From: Capitulum mitella
Lineage: Eukaryota > Arthropoda > Thecostraca > Pollicipedomorpha > Pollicipedidae
Assembly (NCBI GenBank): GCA_030062745.1
Contig: CP099847.1
Coordinates: 24,786,923-24,850,922 of the forward strand
Length of the DNA: 64,000 nucleotides
Reading direction: 5' to 3'
The translations under genes were made by a program, and so were the position numbers. Under the pieces are notes generated by a model, which saw only the letters and a program-made list of their open reading frames with translations, was not told where the DNA came from and ran no database searches. Of this stretch, positions 12,299 to 46,535 are shown one piece after another. Every line of letters starts with the position of its first letter. The first letter of the stretch is position 1.

Positions 12299-14007
12299 GT
12301 AAGTGGCCAAAAATGTCTTTTCATTGTCTGTGGCGCACGGTTGGAGTTCTCTTGCTGTTTGTCAGCTGTGCATGCCTGGTTATCGGTGACAACTCCAGAG
12401 CCTTTTATCGTTGAAACCATGATCTGTTTACGGTAAAGACGCTTTGCACATTGTGCATGTCCACTGGTTTCTAGAATGGTTGAGAGGCCAAACACAGTGC
12501 GTTCAAAGAGAAAATGTACATCTGCTGCCAAAAACTGTTCTCGGCAGCTGACGACGCTTGTCATCAGCATGACGAGCATCCTGATGCGTCGTTCGCATGC
12601 GTCGCAAATGGGAAGAAACCTGTGGAAGGTTTGTAATGTATGCGGACTTTATTGAGGTTTTCGATCCCGAATCTCCCTGAAACCTCGGCAACCTTCCCGA
12701 CTGTGATAGAAGTGCCGAGATATGGTTTTAGTGTGGATTGGCCAGTCCAGTTTGGAATCAACCCATGAAACGGAACTTGAGCTGATCAGTCCACAGTGAC
12801 GAAAAATGAACCCTCATATGGTTCATCGTCCGTGAGCCGGGCGCTTTCACTCGTGATGGATTTATTCTACCGTGTGTGGTTTAGTACATCTAAATATACT
12901 CATGATGAGTGGAAAAATCCGTCCTCACTATCTTGAGCTGCTGCGACCTTAAAGACAGGCGTAGCTGAAGGTGAATATCATGTGGGCAGAGTGAGGCGCA
13001 GCCGTCGATGGCATTGCATGCAACAAACGCGTGTGACGAACTCCACCGTGTCAGCGCCAAGGTTTCGATGTTCGCGTATGCTGGTTTAAGTCACACCGTT
13101 GTTCGGCCCTGTCCCCCAGGTGAACAACTGCGTCGCCACTAACGACAGGCGCTACCTGCCCAGAACGAGAGCCGTCATCTTCCACGCTGCCGACACGAGC
13201 ATGTGGGACTTGCCGCCGGAGCGGACGCCCGACCAGTTGTTCGTGTATCTCACGATGGAGGCGCCGCCGCTTCTGGATATGCCACTGGGCGCACTCAACT
13301 CCGCCTTCAACATCACCATGACGTACAGGCGCGACTCGGACGTTGTCATGCCGTACGGGCTGACGCGGCGCCTGAACGGAACCGCCGCGACTCCTCCGAC
13401 GGACGCGTCTCCGGCGCGACCGGCCGGGGCGGCGAGGGCGGCGACCGTCGCGTGGGTGGTGTCCCACTGTCGTACCTCCGGCGGACGGGAGCAGTACGTG
13501 GCGGAGCTGCAACGCTACCTGCCCGTTGACGTGTACGGCGCGTGCAACAACCGTCCGTGCCCGGAGCGTGGCGTCACGGCGTGCTACCGGTACCTGGCGC
13601 CGACGCACATCTTCTACCTGGCGTTCGAGAACGCGCTGTGTCACGACTACGTGACCGAGAAGTTCTTCGAGGCGCTGGAGGCCGGCATGGTGCCAGTAGT
13701 GCGCGGCGCCTCGCGCGCTGAGTACGAGGCGGTTGCGCCGCCCGGCTCGTTTGTGCACGTGGACGACTTTGCCGGTCCGCGGGAGCTGGCCGCGCACCTG
13801 CGCTACCTGGCGGCTAACGCGTCGGCGCTGGCCGAGCTTACCGCCTGGCGGAGCCGCTACCGGGTGACAAGGGTGTCGGCCTGGTGCGACCTGTGCGCGC
13901 TCATCAACCGGCCGACCGTCTCTCGGTACGACGACATGCGCCGGTGGTGGCACGACGGTTCCCAGTGCAGCAACGGTGACGCCTCCTCCACCTGCGGCGC
14001 ATGTTAG
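12011..14007 (+). CDS. Alpha-1,3-fucosyltransferase (GT10), complete two-exon gene
   Basis: Transfers fucose from GDP-fucose to GlcNAc in alpha-1,3 linkage on glycoproteins in the Golgi. Coding exons 12011-12298 and 13120-14007 join in phase 0 across an 821-bp GT-AG intron (GTAAGT / CCCCCAG) and give 391 residues, a normal length for this family. Residues 15-33 are one membrane anchor after a short basic tail, as expected of a type II Golgi protein. Family hallmarks follow: VLYWTPFF (72-79), FNITMTYRRDSD (159-170) and FYLAFENALCHDYVTEKFF (261-279), the last being the donor-binding signature. N-glycosylation sequons include NIS (68), NIT (160) and NGT. An Ala/Pro-rich insert (about 182-203) separates the N- and C-terminal halves. 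The GTG three bases before the ATG was rejected as a start. A FucT-C-like member is likely, but the exact acceptor cannot be told from sequence. Confidence 0.93.
13120..14007 (+). CDS. Fucosyltransferase exon 2 (residues 97-391)
   Basis: Begins after a CCCCCAG acceptor and ends with TAG at 14005-14007. It contains the acceptor-side motif and the whole donor-binding domain. Third positions are almost all G or C, which also keeps a long antisense frame open (see rejected items). Confidence 0.92.
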   Translation: MNNCVATNDRRYLPRTRAVIFHAADTSMWDLPPERTPDQLFVYLTMEAPPLLDMPLGALNSAFNITMTYRRDSDVVMPYGLTRRLNGTAATPPTDASPARPAGAARAATVAWVVSHCRTSGGREQYVAELQRYLPVDVYGACNNRPCPERGVTACYRYLAPTHIFYLAFENALCHDYVTEKFFEALEAGMVPVVRGASRAEYEAVAPPGSFVHVDDFAGPRELAAHLRYLAANASALAELTAWRSRYRVTRVSAWCDLCALINRPTVSRYDDMRRWWHDGSQCSNGDASSTCGAC

Positions 14008-21749: not shown

Positions 21750-22375
21750 ATGTATATACATATGAGTATCAACGTGCCAAACGTGTTTTTAGTAGTGTCT
21801 TTGAAAACATATTTCACACAAATCGACATATTGCAAAGCATATCTTGGCCAGGCCACAAAATATTTACCCCTGATCTTTGATGACCTTGACCTGCGCTGA
21901 CCCTGGTACATATCAGCGTATCCATGTGCGCATACGTGTTTTTATTAGGGTCTTTGAATGCATATTTCATACAAATCGGCATATCGCAAAGTCAGTCTGG
22001 ACCAGGTCACAAGATATTTGACCTTGACCTTTGATGACTTTGGCTTTCACTGACCCTGGTATATATAAGCCTAAGTATATGAGTTTTTACACACATGTTT
22101 TTATTAGGGTTTCTGAATGCATATTTCATACAAACCGACATGTTGCAAAGCACATCTGGGTCAGGTTACAAGTTGATTGACCTTGACCTTTGATGACCTT
22201 GACCTACACTTACTCTAGTACATATAAGCGTGTCCATGTGTGCACACGTGTTTTTATCAGGATCTTTGAATGCGTATTTCGTACAAATCAACATGTCGCA
22301 AAGCAGATCTGGACCAGATCACAAGATATTTGACCTTGACCTTTGATGTCCTTAACCCTCATTGACCCTGACTTT
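21750..22375 (+). repeat. Four-copy tandem repeat, about 153-bp unit
   Basis: An ACGTGTTTTT anchor occurs at 21781, 21934, 22093 (ACATG variant) and 22246. Each unit holds TCTTTGAATGCATATTTC, ACAAATC, GCATATCGCAAAG, a GGACCAGGTCACAAGATATTTGACC block and TTGACCTTTGATGACCTTGACC, with several overlapping AGGTCA half-sites in opposite orientation. Short TATG/TA runs precede the first unit. Confidence 0.9.
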
Positions 22376-42489: not shown

Positions 42490-42497
42490 CTATGCAC
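42490..42497. repeat. Left 8-bp target-site duplication
   Basis: CTATGCAC directly outside the left inverted repeat, identical to 46042-46049. Confidence 0.85.
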
Positions 42498-42687
42498 TAG
42501 GGTGGATCAAAAAAAATAAATCATTTTCTTAGGGGTCAAAACGCGTGCGCGTGAATATGGAAAAAAGAAAAATGAGGACCAAAAAAATATTTAAAATATT
42601 TTAGATAGGGCGCACGAAGCATTTTTGGGACCAGAAATACGCTTTCTAGGCGTTGAAGTCTCCATTGCTTAAAACATTTTGCACAAG
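42498..42687 (+). repeat. Left terminal inverted repeat
   Basis: It pairs with 45840-46041. Shared blocks in order: TAGGGTGGATC, CTTAGGGGTCAAAACGCGTGCGCG, AGGGCGCAC, and a final CCATTG. By eye roughly two thirds of the bases match, with short gaps. Confidence 0.85.
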
Positions 42688-42806
42688 AAGGTAACCCTTC
42701 AGAAATCTATGTGAATCCTGTGAGTGATAATTTTCGGCGTTTAGCGCATGCGCCGAACAAACGCTGTTTGCGTCATGTCGGCAACCATCGAAAGATATCA
42801 TAATTG

Positions 42807-42817
42807 TCATCGTCATC

Positions 42818-42848
<31 letters not shown>

Positions 42849-42859
42849 TCATCATCATT
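42807..42859. repeat. (CAT)n microsatellite inside the transposon
   Basis: About 17 CAT triplets with a few CGT interruptions between the 3' end of the transposon gene and its terminal repeat. Confidence 0.9.
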
Positions 42860-42914
42860 GTTATCTTCACCATTCATCAAACGCCATCCCAGACACAACG
42901 TTAAACCAGAACTA

Positions 42915-42920
42915 TTTATT
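42915..42920 (-). terminator. Polyadenylation signal of transposon gene
   Basis: AATAAA on the minus strand, about 50 bases beyond the stop codon of the second coding segment, at the position expected for the transposon's own transcript. Confidence 0.5.
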
Positions 42921-42971
42921 TGTGATGAATGACATTCCACAACAAACTCCGCTGCCACTAATAAACCAGCC

Positions 42972-43562
42972 TCAGCGGTCACTTGTCACTCGAAGCCAGT
43001 CATAGAAGTCCCTCCTCGTGTCCATCACTGGCAGATCAGTCCTGGACCGGGCTTTTGCCAGTATCAGTGCATGACGTCCACTGTGCCCCGCCTTCTTCTC
43101 TACCGTTTGTGTGACTTCTTTCACCCATCGTTCGACCCCTTGAGAGTGGCAGGGAAGGTCACTGAAGTCCATTGGTGCTTCCACAACAGCCGCGATGGTC
43201 TCGTCTGACATTTCCATGACCAAAGGTGGCTCCGTTGTATCTTGCCAGTCAATCATATGGTGGTACTCCTCGGCATGGAAGCTGATGTCAGGGATAACGA
43301 ACTGGCGTATGTCATCTGGATCCTGGTCCTGGCATCTTCTGGTTCGACATCTCCTTATGCGCTCTACCGCCAGCATCCTGTTCTCCTGCTGATCGTCGGC
43401 CAGCATAGCGATCAGGACATGCTCACTGTGGCCCCAGAACCCGTTGCGCTGAAGCACCTTTTGCGTGATGTTACGGTCTCTCTCCAGCAGCTTTCTTGAC
43501 AGCAATATCAGAAAGAACAGGTTCTTCGCTCCGTCGCTGATATTTGAATGAAGTCCACCTGA
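42972..43562 (-). pseudogene. Transposase-like protein, C-terminal segment (out of frame)
   Basis: This continues the protein encoded at 43627-45333 in a different frame. It is open from about 43562 to TGA at 42972. It contains DGAKNLFFLILL, QRNGFWGHSEHVL, a YHHMIDW..TEPP block and CHSQGVERWVKEV. I recall corresponding blocks in the unnamed invertebrate family, where CHTQAVER is strongly kept; its Glu is a candidate third catalytic acid. The first in-frame ATG (43503-43505) is internal to the ancestral protein, so the 177-aa frame is not a natural gene start. The frameshift against the upstream segment lies between about 43536 and 43563. Confidence 0.7.
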
Positions 43563-43584
43563 ACCATCCGGGGCCGTACTGATT

Positions 43585-43601
43585 TAGTATAAAATATACT
43601 A
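43585..43601. repeat. Perfect 7-bp hairpin in the interrupted coding region
   Basis: TAGTATA-AAA-TATACTA lies between the TAG lesion and the frameshift of the transposon gene. It may be incidental to the codons there. Confidence 0.6.
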
Positions 43602-43626
43602 GCCGTACAAGCGCCGGTGCTGGAGC

Positions 43627-45333
43627 CTATGTGGACACGTACAGTCTGAGTACTCTATTTGCAAGTGTAACCCAACGGGCTTGATGGATGGCCCCTGGTT
43701 CTAAGGCCAACAAGCACTGGGTAACACCTTCTGCTCCTGCCTGGACGGCCGTACACATGTCATGCAGGTATTGCTGATCTTTGCTCATCTCATTTCGAAC
43801 TTCTACCGGAATTGAAGGAGCTAGTTCCAGCACTGGCTCAAACTTAGCCAAAGGCAGTGTGGTCAGATCTCTCTGAAAGGCTTTGTCAGCTGGTCCGTGG
43901 AAGGATGCTGGACCACTCGTTCCACCATCAGCATCCTTGAACACATGTCTCAGCGTCAGTTCGTTGATGCGGATACCGCATATAGCTTGCTGGAGCGGAC
44001 GGCCTACACCCAGTTCGATTCGCCTGTTCACACCACTGTTGCGGCCGGTATTTACCGCTATGCCGTCTGATCCAAGCACCACTGGATGCGCATCGTTGTC
44101 CCGTATCACGTCCAGCAACTCCTTCGCGATATCTGCAGCACTTCCGCTATTTGGAGACACGTGATCGACATACCGATGGCCGGGCTCAGTAATCACTATC
44201 TCGTGCAGTTCTTTGGCAAACGTCAATTTCTTACCAACTTTCTGCAGCGTCTTGTCCTGCCTACCGTCGTAATAGAATCCTGCTAAGCGGTCACGTCGGT
44301 TTTGCAATGAGCTTTCAGCCACCTCTTCTTTACCCCATTTGTCTCTCTGTCGCTGGATTTTGCTGCGGTCTGTCAGCTCAGCCTTGTTGTGCTCTGTGAT
44401 TATCCCATAATCAACCAAAGCTGCGTTCAGCAAGCAAGCCGCGGAGCGATCAGAGTGACCGTACCGATGACACATCCGTGAAAAATTCGGAAGCTGATGT
44501 CGGTTCTGTCCGACGACATCGTCCGCGTCATCATCGGAACTAGGTGAATAAGAGCGGCTTGCATCAGCTGCCTCCGTATCACCCGTCTTACACTTTTCAC
44601 TGCTATCATCGTCGTCATCTGCATCCCCTTCGGCCAGTTGCCTATCTTCAGCATCGTGCTGCCTGTTCCTCTTCTGTCTCTTTTCCGCTAGTTCCATTCT
44701 TTTCCCCCTTCTCTTCTGCCTTCGGACATTTTCCTCAGTTGTCTTCCGGTCAACGCCGCCTATGTAGAGCTTTTTCTCTCCTCGCTGGTCTTTGAGGAAA
44801 GCTACTTGTTGAGCTGGCACCCTTTTAGAAGCTGGACACGTGCCACAGGGGACATCAGCAAGATCGCATCGGCACCACATGTCAAATAAACCATCGTACT
44901 CTCGCTGCGTACTCACGGAATTTCGACCCTTGCCCCGTTCGCGTTTCGAAGACCATTTCATGAGGTTCTTCCCCGTTATGGCCAGTCTTTCTACGCTCTG
45001 AACTATCCTGTTCTCCGAAATCACATTTGACATCTCTCTCTCGGTCTTACCTGACGTGCCACCCATTTGGGATGCCTCTCCGTCGACCACTGGTATCCAC
45101 GTAATAAGACTGGCGCTGTCCCAGATGTCTACTATGGCATCCTTGACTGCTTTTGCTATTTCTCGTTTTGTCCGCTCCTTTCCAGAAGGCGTTGTCCTTT
45201 CACTCCGTGTCTTCACGTAAAAAGCATACACTTCTCTTTTCCACGGTAGCTGGTTTATGGGAAGAGCGTCCGGGCCTGTTTGCAGCAAAGGGTGTTTCGT
45301 TCTCTGTCTTGTTGATGGTCCTGGATTACTCAT
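43627..45333 (-). pseudogene. Transposase-like protein, main segment (568 codons)
   Basis: Likely catalytic protein of the surrounding element. Reading from the ATG at 45333: a basic N-terminus; a C-x-C-x6-C-x2-C cluster (C154, C156, C163, C166) that could bind zinc; AFLKDQRGEKKLYIGGVD (178-195); a run of basic residues (203-224) suited to nuclear entry; an acidic Ser/Asp linker (235-272); then a C-terminal region with FYYDGRQDKT (D356), LGSDGIAVNTG (D423) and CGIRINELTLRH (452-463). The Asp-Asp spacing and the C-x2-R, where relatives as I recall have C-x2-H, suggest an RNase H-like DDE core (inference). The frame ends at TAG 43627-43629 in the middle of a conserved block, since the next 20 or so codons still match the family pattern (YGPGWF). 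A short intron removing the lesions is possible but has poor splice sites. Confidence 0.75.
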
Positions 45334-45349
45334 TTTAGCCCAGTTCAGA

Positions 45350-45385
45350 ATGTCACTGTGTCACAGAATGTCACAGAATGTCACC
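45350..45385 (-). repeat. Short direct repeats upstream of the transposon ORF
   Basis: Three copies of AGAATGTCAC or TGTCAC-type units (TCACAGAATG repeated) just upstream of the main ATG. On the minus strand the frame upstream of the ATG is open for about ten codons to a TGA inside this repeat, so translation or splicing may begin here. This could be a regulatory site for the transposon. Confidence 0.5.
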
Positions 45386-45464
45386 CCCTGCGATCCGAAT
45401 GCTGACGGAACACACCCGAGTAGTAAATTTCTGGTCACCACGCCACAGTCCAGGGACCAGCGCG

Positions 45465-45668
45465 CTACTCTTCTGACGTGTCTGTCTGACTCGACCGCTC
45501 TCTGATGACAACAAAGCGCTTCGCTGCGAGGTACCGTTTACCGGCACCGATCAAGGTTTTCAAGAGCGTCCTCAGAGATGAGCAGCGTGGAGCAACGATA
45601 TGTGTGGAAAGCCCACGAATTCGACTCGGACTCTGTAGTCCGCATCTATTGCAGGTCGTGAGGCTCAC
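45465..45668 (-). CDS. Small Cys/His frame upstream of transposon gene (candidate first exon)
   Basis: A 67-codon minus-strand frame inside the same element. It holds C-x2-C-x13-H-x5-C near its start, a zinc-finger-like spacing, followed by a basic segment. Transposases often carry an N-terminal DNA-binding finger in a separate exon, so this may be spliced to the main frame, for instance to the short open stretch just before the ATG at 45333. No strong donor was found, so it may also be chance. Confidence 0.3.
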   Translation of the reverse strand: MSLTTCNRCGLQSPSRIRGLSTHIVAPRCSSLRTLLKTLIGAGKRYLAAKRFVVIRERSSQTDTSEE

Positions 45669-45839
45669 TGGTGCGCGGTCTTAGCTCGTAAGGGCTACTG
45701 TCTGTCTACCACTTTATTTTCCCTGGCAGTCTCCTGTTATTTGCTGAAATCCATGCTCATCACCTATCCGTGAACTACAGACACCAAAAGGCCCACAAAG
45801 CTACGCACAGCTACGGTGGATGGTGACCGAGGTGCTATC

Positions 45840-46041
45840 TTGCTATGCGCAATGCTAAACCAATGGCGACTTTAATGCTCGGGAACGGCGAAACTCACTT
45901 CAAAGACGCTAGGTGCGCCCTTTCTAGAATATTTTTAATATCTTTTTACTCCTTATTTTCCGTGTTTTCAGATCCGCGCGCACGCGTTTTGACCCCTAAG
46001 AAGTTGTTTTGCGACAAAAAATATATTTTCGATCCACCCTA
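45840..46041 (-). repeat. Right terminal inverted repeat
   Basis: Reverse complement of the left repeat. It ends GATCCACCCTA at 46031-46041, directly before CTATGCAC. Confidence 0.85.
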
Positions 46042-46049
46042 CTATGCAC
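46042..46049. repeat. Right 8-bp target-site duplication
   Basis: CTATGCAC, identical to 42490-42497. Confidence 0.85.
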
Positions 46050-46169: not shown

Positions 46170-46535
46170 CGAGGAGGCTCAGCCGCTGGATGAAGCTCAG
46201 CCGCCGCGTGAAGCTCGGCCACTGGATGAAGCTCAGCCGCTTGATGAAGCTCAGCCGCCGCGTGAAGCTCGGCCACTGGATGAAGCTCAGCCGCTTGATG
46301 AAGCCCAGCCGCTTGATGAAGCTCAACCGCCGGGTGAAGCTCGGCCGCGGGATGAAGCTCAGCCGCCGGGTGATGCTCAGCCGCCGGGTGAAGCTCGAGC
46401 CGCTGGATGAAGCTTGGCCGCCGGGTGAAGCTCTGCCACTGGATGAAGCTCAGCCGCTTGATGAAGCTCAGCCGCCGGGTGAAGCTCGGCCGCTGGATGG
46501 AGCTCAGCCGCTTGATGAAGCTCAGCCGCCGCCGC
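46170..46535. repeat. 15-bp-period minisatellite
   Basis: About 24 units of the type TGAAGCTCAGCCGCC, alternating with TGAAGCTCGGCCGCT. Because the period is a multiple of three, every frame stays open, giving false frames on both strands (repeats of DEAQP/REARPL on plus, HPAAEL on minus). It starts 130 bases beyond the transposon's right end. Confidence 0.95.

Follow-up and report, generated by a model that had tools for sequence, protein, structure and literature searches.

The element and its gene

The stretch of DNA considered here, 64,000 nucleotides of the Capitulum mitella genome (assembly GCA_030062745.1, contig CP099847.1, positions 24,786,923 to 24,850,922 of the forward strand; hereafter the window), contains a DNA transposon of 3,544 bp at window positions 42498-46041. 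It starts with TAGGGTGGATC, ends with GATCCACCCTA and is flanked on both sides by CTATGCAC (Table 1), the perfect 8-bp duplication already pointed out in a preliminary description of this DNA. The ends of the element are inverted repeats, with 245 nt on the left aligning to 255 nt on the right at 181/236 identities (77%); a repeat search divides them into a 16-nt tip at 94% identity and a further 110 nt at 81%. In two other copies, L030 and L031, some 200 nt of the ends align with 163/198 and 156/192 identities, respectively, and the repeat length of about 190 bp originally given was a fair estimate. The single minus-strand gene that had been described between the ends is indeed present, but it is not intact in the window copy, where a premature stop and a change of frame leave reading frames of 568 and 177 aa, and where the histidine of a CxxH motif (see below) is replaced by R. 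L030 and L031 contain single open frames of 788 and 787 aa, respectively, so that at least two intact copies exist.

We also noted a tip-like motif, TACGGTGGATG, preceded by CGCACAGC, at window 45812-45822, some 220 bp inward of the right end; the motif recurred at the matching place in all 8 loci compared (8/8) and could be a candidate subterminal binding site or the remnant of an inner end.

Table 1. Parts of the transposon and its flanking duplications, in window coordinates.
Feature	Position	Strand	Remarks	Basis
Left 8-bp target-site duplication, CTATGCAC	42490..42497	none	In other copies, mostly different 8-mers of the nTRTRCAn pattern	Sequence read
Left terminal inverted repeat, tip TAGGGTGGATC	42498..42742	+		181/236 identities with right end; 40 scored genomic matches at >=93%
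Transposase gene, C-terminal part	42972..43505	-	Different frame from remainder; ER motif (E736 of intact protein)	Reading frames, intact relative L030, conservation in distant rows
Transposase, N-terminal 568 aa	43627..45333	-	Premature stop at end; Cys cluster, D357, D424, C453, RW	
Right terminal inverted repeat, ends GATCCACCCTA	45787..46041	-		Alignment with left end; 40 scored genomic matches at >=95%
Right 8-bp target-site duplication, CTATGCAC	46042..46049	none		Sequence read

Copies and target-site duplications

The genome (477 Mb, 16 contigs) was searched with both ends and with the protein. The counts reported here are lower bounds, as the end searches scored the best 40 of 245 (left) and the best 40 of 244 (right) candidates, and the 85 protein matches stem from the best 77 of 637 candidates. 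We fetched 27 copies together with their flanks (L029-L055, window copy included), which make up a non-random sample: all are top-scoring matches, and 15 were chosen for having both ends listed. The ends could be paired in 26 of the 27 copies, the remaining one (L032) yielding no right tip and apparently having lost its right end. Identical 8-bp duplications were found at 24 of the 26 paired copies, one further copy agreeing at 7/8 positions and another (L052) being exact after a 1-bp slip; the outcome was the same, again 24/26 exact, when tips were paired blind to the duplication. Since mismatched left/right pairs, serving as a control, were identical at 8 bp in 2/650 cases, the duplications of the window family lie far above chance. 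The target sites conform to the consensus nTRTRCAn, with T at position 2 in 25/25 and A at position 7 in 24/25 of the copies counted, and the tip of the family reads TAGGGTG. Many copies with such tips and 8-bp duplications, which the preliminary description had suggested looking for, are thus present.

The smallest difference between examined copies amounts to 0.2% (L038 versus L040); as the two occupy separate target sites, such near-identity suggests recent movement of the element. Most of the listed copies are broken, and several have stops in common (codon 140 in 8/27 copies, codons 214-217 in 6-7). This would be expected if defective copies depended on intact ones for movement in trans, which is probably the case.

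The protein is tied to the ends

Family protein was present in the expected span and orientation at 39/40 left and 40/40 right scored ends (79/80, counted as ends rather than copies, as several copies contribute both), the exception being the end at C11:2990137. This bears directly on the idea that the open reading frame is captured cargo and that the element is moved via its ends by an ordinary hAT transposase encoded elsewhere. In its favor, such transposases are present in the genome, and with most listed copies broken, movement in trans is probable; however, none of the 54 listed places matching the hAT dimerisation domain (PF05699) fell within the element spans belonging to these 80 ends (0/54), and the closest of these places to any family protein was 7.4 kb off. 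A distant second family, whose protein is about 27% identical, moreover has the same kind of ends, and the conserved residues of the protein resemble those of a DDE enzyme (both described below). On the strength of the 79/80 scored ends and the 0/54 listed hAT places we rejected the cargo idea, which strikes us as extremely improbable. Protein copies devoid of such ends, and a hAT transposase between the ends, were the two findings that the preliminary description had named in advance as speaking against its own proposal; both searches were run, and the figures just given are their results.

Insertion of the element can be followed on contig C13, where a copy is nested inside a relic of another family and has CAGGGCAT at both flanks, whereas two paralogous relics (L061 and L063) are uninterrupted and contain a single CAGGGCAT each. 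The joined 200-nt site of the nested copy aligns full length to L061 and over 199 nt to L063. Comparison of the nested copy with the two relics thus shows insertion accompanied by an 8-bp duplication, the kind of empty site that had been suggested as a check. As originally claimed, and as seen from its ends, duplications, many copies and empty site, the element is a complete, genuine cut-and-paste DNA transposon present in many copies in the host genome. Its protein, found in the expected orientation at nearly all scored ends, is very probably the transposase of the element, which had likewise been proposed.

A second family with homologous protein and similar ends

A second family, consisting of L057 and its relatives, encodes a protein about 27% identical to the intact protein P0001 of the window family. 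In L057 the inverted repeats extend over about 400 nt at 76% identity, the left one being parted from its tip by other DNA; the tips are CAGGGTGACCC and TAGGGTGACCC, and the flanking 8-mers agree at 5/8 positions. A genome search with the L057 end gave 39 matches. They form 13 inverted pairs with spacings of 1.9-8.2 kb, and a protein match lies within 6 of these pairs. Across the family, the inverted repeats measure at least about 400 nt and the tips read YAGGGTGACCC, with YAGGGTG in the better preserved ends. Duplications were read for 10 of the 13 end pairs, in addition to L057. Two of the ten pairs have 8/8 duplications without slip (ATGCACAT and CTGGATCG; mismatched pairs 0/90), 5/10 reach at least 7/8 at a slip of at most 1 bp (one of them TA-rich; mismatched pairs 4/90), and 6/10 do so if a slip of up to 2 bp is allowed. 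As mismatched pairs reach 7/8 in 9/90 cases under the latter setting, slipped matches are weak evidence when taken singly. Three pairs agree at 7/8 with a slip of 1-2 bp outside TA repeats, and three of the ten fail altogether; L089/L090 (slip 1) and L087/L088 (slip 3) attain 7/8 only in TA-rich sequence and were not counted as duplications. The 8-bp duplications of the second family are, in other words, decayed. Two distant families with homologous proteins have the tip, the duplication length and the target pattern in common, and together with the ends, duplications and empty site of the window family this upholds the earlier proposal that the termini tie the protein family to mobility.

Altogether, the protein occurs in the genome as several distant groups, whose identity to P0001 is about 25-45%. 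One relic of a third group (L112-L114), L113 (G000:C16:10213600-10218200), is itself duplicated in inverted orientation, with 1.2-kb arms at 95% identity on either side of a spacer of about 0.5 kb.

Conserved residues and library searches

Conservation was assessed in 23 rows from 24 places representing distant, mostly decayed relatives, a row being counted only where the residue in question was present. Two aspartates (D357 in 5/5 and D424 in 14/19 distant rows) are followed by the CxxH motif (C453 in 18/22, H456 in 18/23), and further along the chain come the conserved pairs R554 (14/16) and W555 (10/14), and E736 (9/10) and R737 (10/10). Near the N terminus, proteins of the window family have a cysteine cluster of the type CxC..CxxC (residues 155-167).

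Pfam searches with the window fragments, the intact protein, 29 aligned rows and two L057 pieces gave weak unrelated matches only, no BED domain was among the Pfam matches of P0001, and no credible match to the protein was obtained in NCBIfam or in the PDB, the latter searched by sequence and by profile. Pattern-based scans of viral contigs and prokaryote genomes returned no relatives of the protein; a host hAT query likewise returned none from the viral contigs in such scans. Among the papers listed in literature searches, we recognized none as describing the family of the window element, although such elements may be catalogued in Repbase under hAT or as unclassified. The coral MITEs (miniature inverted-repeat transposable elements) treated in PMC2872659 are piggyBac-like and unrelated to the window element.

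Relationship to hAT elements

The motifs of the family protein occur in the order D, D, CxxH, RW, ER, which it shares with two host hAT proteins and with Hermes; this is agreement at the motif level rather than a homology statistic, the positions compared being the catalytic residues of the hAT proteins. The two aspartates are 67 residues apart in the family protein, compared with 67 and 66 in the host hAT proteins and 68 in Hermes, while the cysteine of CxxH follows the second aspartate after 29 residues, compared with 19 and 28 (host hAT proteins) and 17 (Hermes). Regarding DNA features, the 8-bp duplication with T at position 2 and A at position 7 resembles that of Ac-type hAT elements (Ac, Hermes), the Hermes target being given as nTnnnnAn in PMC10368747 and as T2/A7 in PMC8721813. 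The family tip is of the YAGGG type, with TAGGG as in Ac, whose ends are given as C/TAGGGATGAAA (PMC3260210), and the size of the element is inside the 2.5-5 kb range stated for hAT elements in PMC3942097.

Several observations weigh against a hAT affiliation, or against parts of the picture drawn here. The inverted repeats of the family are about 200-400 bp long, in contrast to the 10-25 bp given for hAT elements in the same paper (PMC3942097), and the stretch from RW to E, which spans 261 and 283 residues in the host hAT proteins, has 181 here. No transposase or PF05699 model was among the Pfam matches listed for intact P0001 (up to E 10) or for 29 aligned rows, in searches where HMMER's filtering removes the majority of matches weaker than E 0.1. 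The family also differs from hAT elements in showing no BED domain hit and, in the window family, the cysteine cluster instead. In hhalign comparisons, hAT sequences were aligned at E values of 0.06 to 0.88, with scores not clearly above those of shuffled or reversed controls: shuffles reached the real score in 16/60 (P0003), 3/60 (L092) and 57/60 (Hermes fragment) cases, and reversed sequences scored 17.3, 20.0 and 12.6 versus 18.8, 21.0 and 11.4 for the real ones. The alignment was in register, placing the aspartate and the CxxH motif opposite their counterparts, for P0003 and in 2/3 runs for L092, without significance, whereas the best alignment fell outside the catalytic region for the Hermes fragment and in one L092 run. 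Furthermore, the catalytic acid could be a second conserved one, E639 (10/11 in distant rows), the nested copy on C13 has a target (CAGGGCAT, outside the 25-copy count) without T at position 2, and recognizable ends were found in 0/3 stretches of the third group.

The preliminary description had assigned the element to an apparently unnamed superfamily. The part of this claim that stands is that searches of Pfam, NCBIfam and the PDB gave no credible match to the protein, while target site, tip, motif order and spacing of the aspartates turned out to be hAT-like. A separate superfamily would imply that an RNase H-fold transposase has arrived at an 8-bp duplication, a T2/A7 target, a TAGGG tip and a CxxH motif by convergence, or has retained them from a very deep root. 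Consistent with it are the non-significant sequence and profile similarity to hAT, the long inverted repeats, the N-terminal CxC..CxxC cluster with no BED hit in Pfam, and the presence of several distant protein groups, about 25-45% identical to P0001, in one genome. It has to be reconciled, though, with the coincidence of three independent hAT hallmarks (target pattern, tip, and ordered motifs with equal spacing of the aspartates) and with the best, if non-significant, profile alignments of P0003 and, in 2/3 runs, L092 being in register on the second aspartate and CxxH. We regard a separate superfamily as a tentative option. Given the resemblance to hAT in target site, tip, sequence of motifs and distance between the aspartates, a divergent hAT-allied branch appears at least as likely; the shared motifs suggest homology of the family protein to hAT, and a deeply divergent hAT-allied lineage, either inside hAT or sister to it, would be the most likely placement. 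We have refrained from filing the element as a hAT member because the hAT dimerisation domain was tested for and not found.

Assignment to the P superfamily or to KDZ was also considered, and we judge it very unlikely. Pfam includes THAP and P-type domain models, and the matches that it listed for P0001 up to E 10 included neither a THAP or P model nor the KDZ model PF18758. The P element tip differs from the YAGGG tip of the family, and P transposases are not known to have a CxxH following the second D. The KDZ model matched one genomic place, G000:C9:28059752-28060075 (-), at E 8.6e-9, which lies outside the window family. What the family does have in common with these groups are 8-bp duplications, described for the P element along with its domains (PMC7776569) and for the KDZ element Zisupton (PMC12730594), and, with Galileo of the P superfamily, unusually long inverted repeats (PMC3688188). 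Kyakuja, by contrast, is described in PMC12730594 as lacking inverted repeats, having CA..TG ends and making duplications of 7 bp, unlike the family studied here.

Other features of the window

A tandem array with an 18/54-bp unit (GCTCAGCCGCTGGATGAA) occupies window positions 46177-46531, beginning about 130 bp outside the element, and a further tandem repeat, with a unit of about 153 bp present 3.9 times, is located at 21766-22370. The open frame at 13099-14007 (+) matches Glyco_transf_10 (E 1e-52) and Glyco_tran_10_N, i.e., glycosyltransferase family 10 (fucosyltransferase), and is, judging from these matches, an ordinary host gene or exon.

Proposed mechanism and implications

Taken together, we consider it highly probable that this cut-and-paste transposon has its own 788-aa DDE-type transposase; the enzyme most likely represents a very divergent hAT-allied branch, with a mechanism not wholly unrelated to that of hAT. 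The single gene, of which two or more other copies are intact, would encode the transposase, which would bind the inverted ends of about 200-245 bp starting with TAGGGTG and then excise the element. Catalysis may be effected by D357, D424 and E736, which the motifs would place in an RNase H-like fold, with CxxH just past the second aspartate. In hAT transposition, hairpins form on the flanking DNA, and by analogy the same route may be taken here. Joining would then occur across an 8-bp staggered target with a preference for nTRTRCAn, fill-in giving rise to the 8-bp duplication, and intact copies would supply the enzyme in trans to defective ones.

The ends, the target duplications, the empty site and the distantly related second family now link to mobility a group of proteins that went unrecognized in our Pfam and NCBIfam searches, and such proteins in other genomes would become annotatable as transposases. 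The range of likely DDE transposases associated with the hAT target pattern is thereby widened. If, as seems possible though doubtful, the family constitutes a separate superfamily, the latter would combine long inverted repeats, an N-terminal region with a cysteine cluster (window family) and hAT-type nTRTRCAn targets, and many uncharacterized multi-copy invertebrate proteins would be its transposases.

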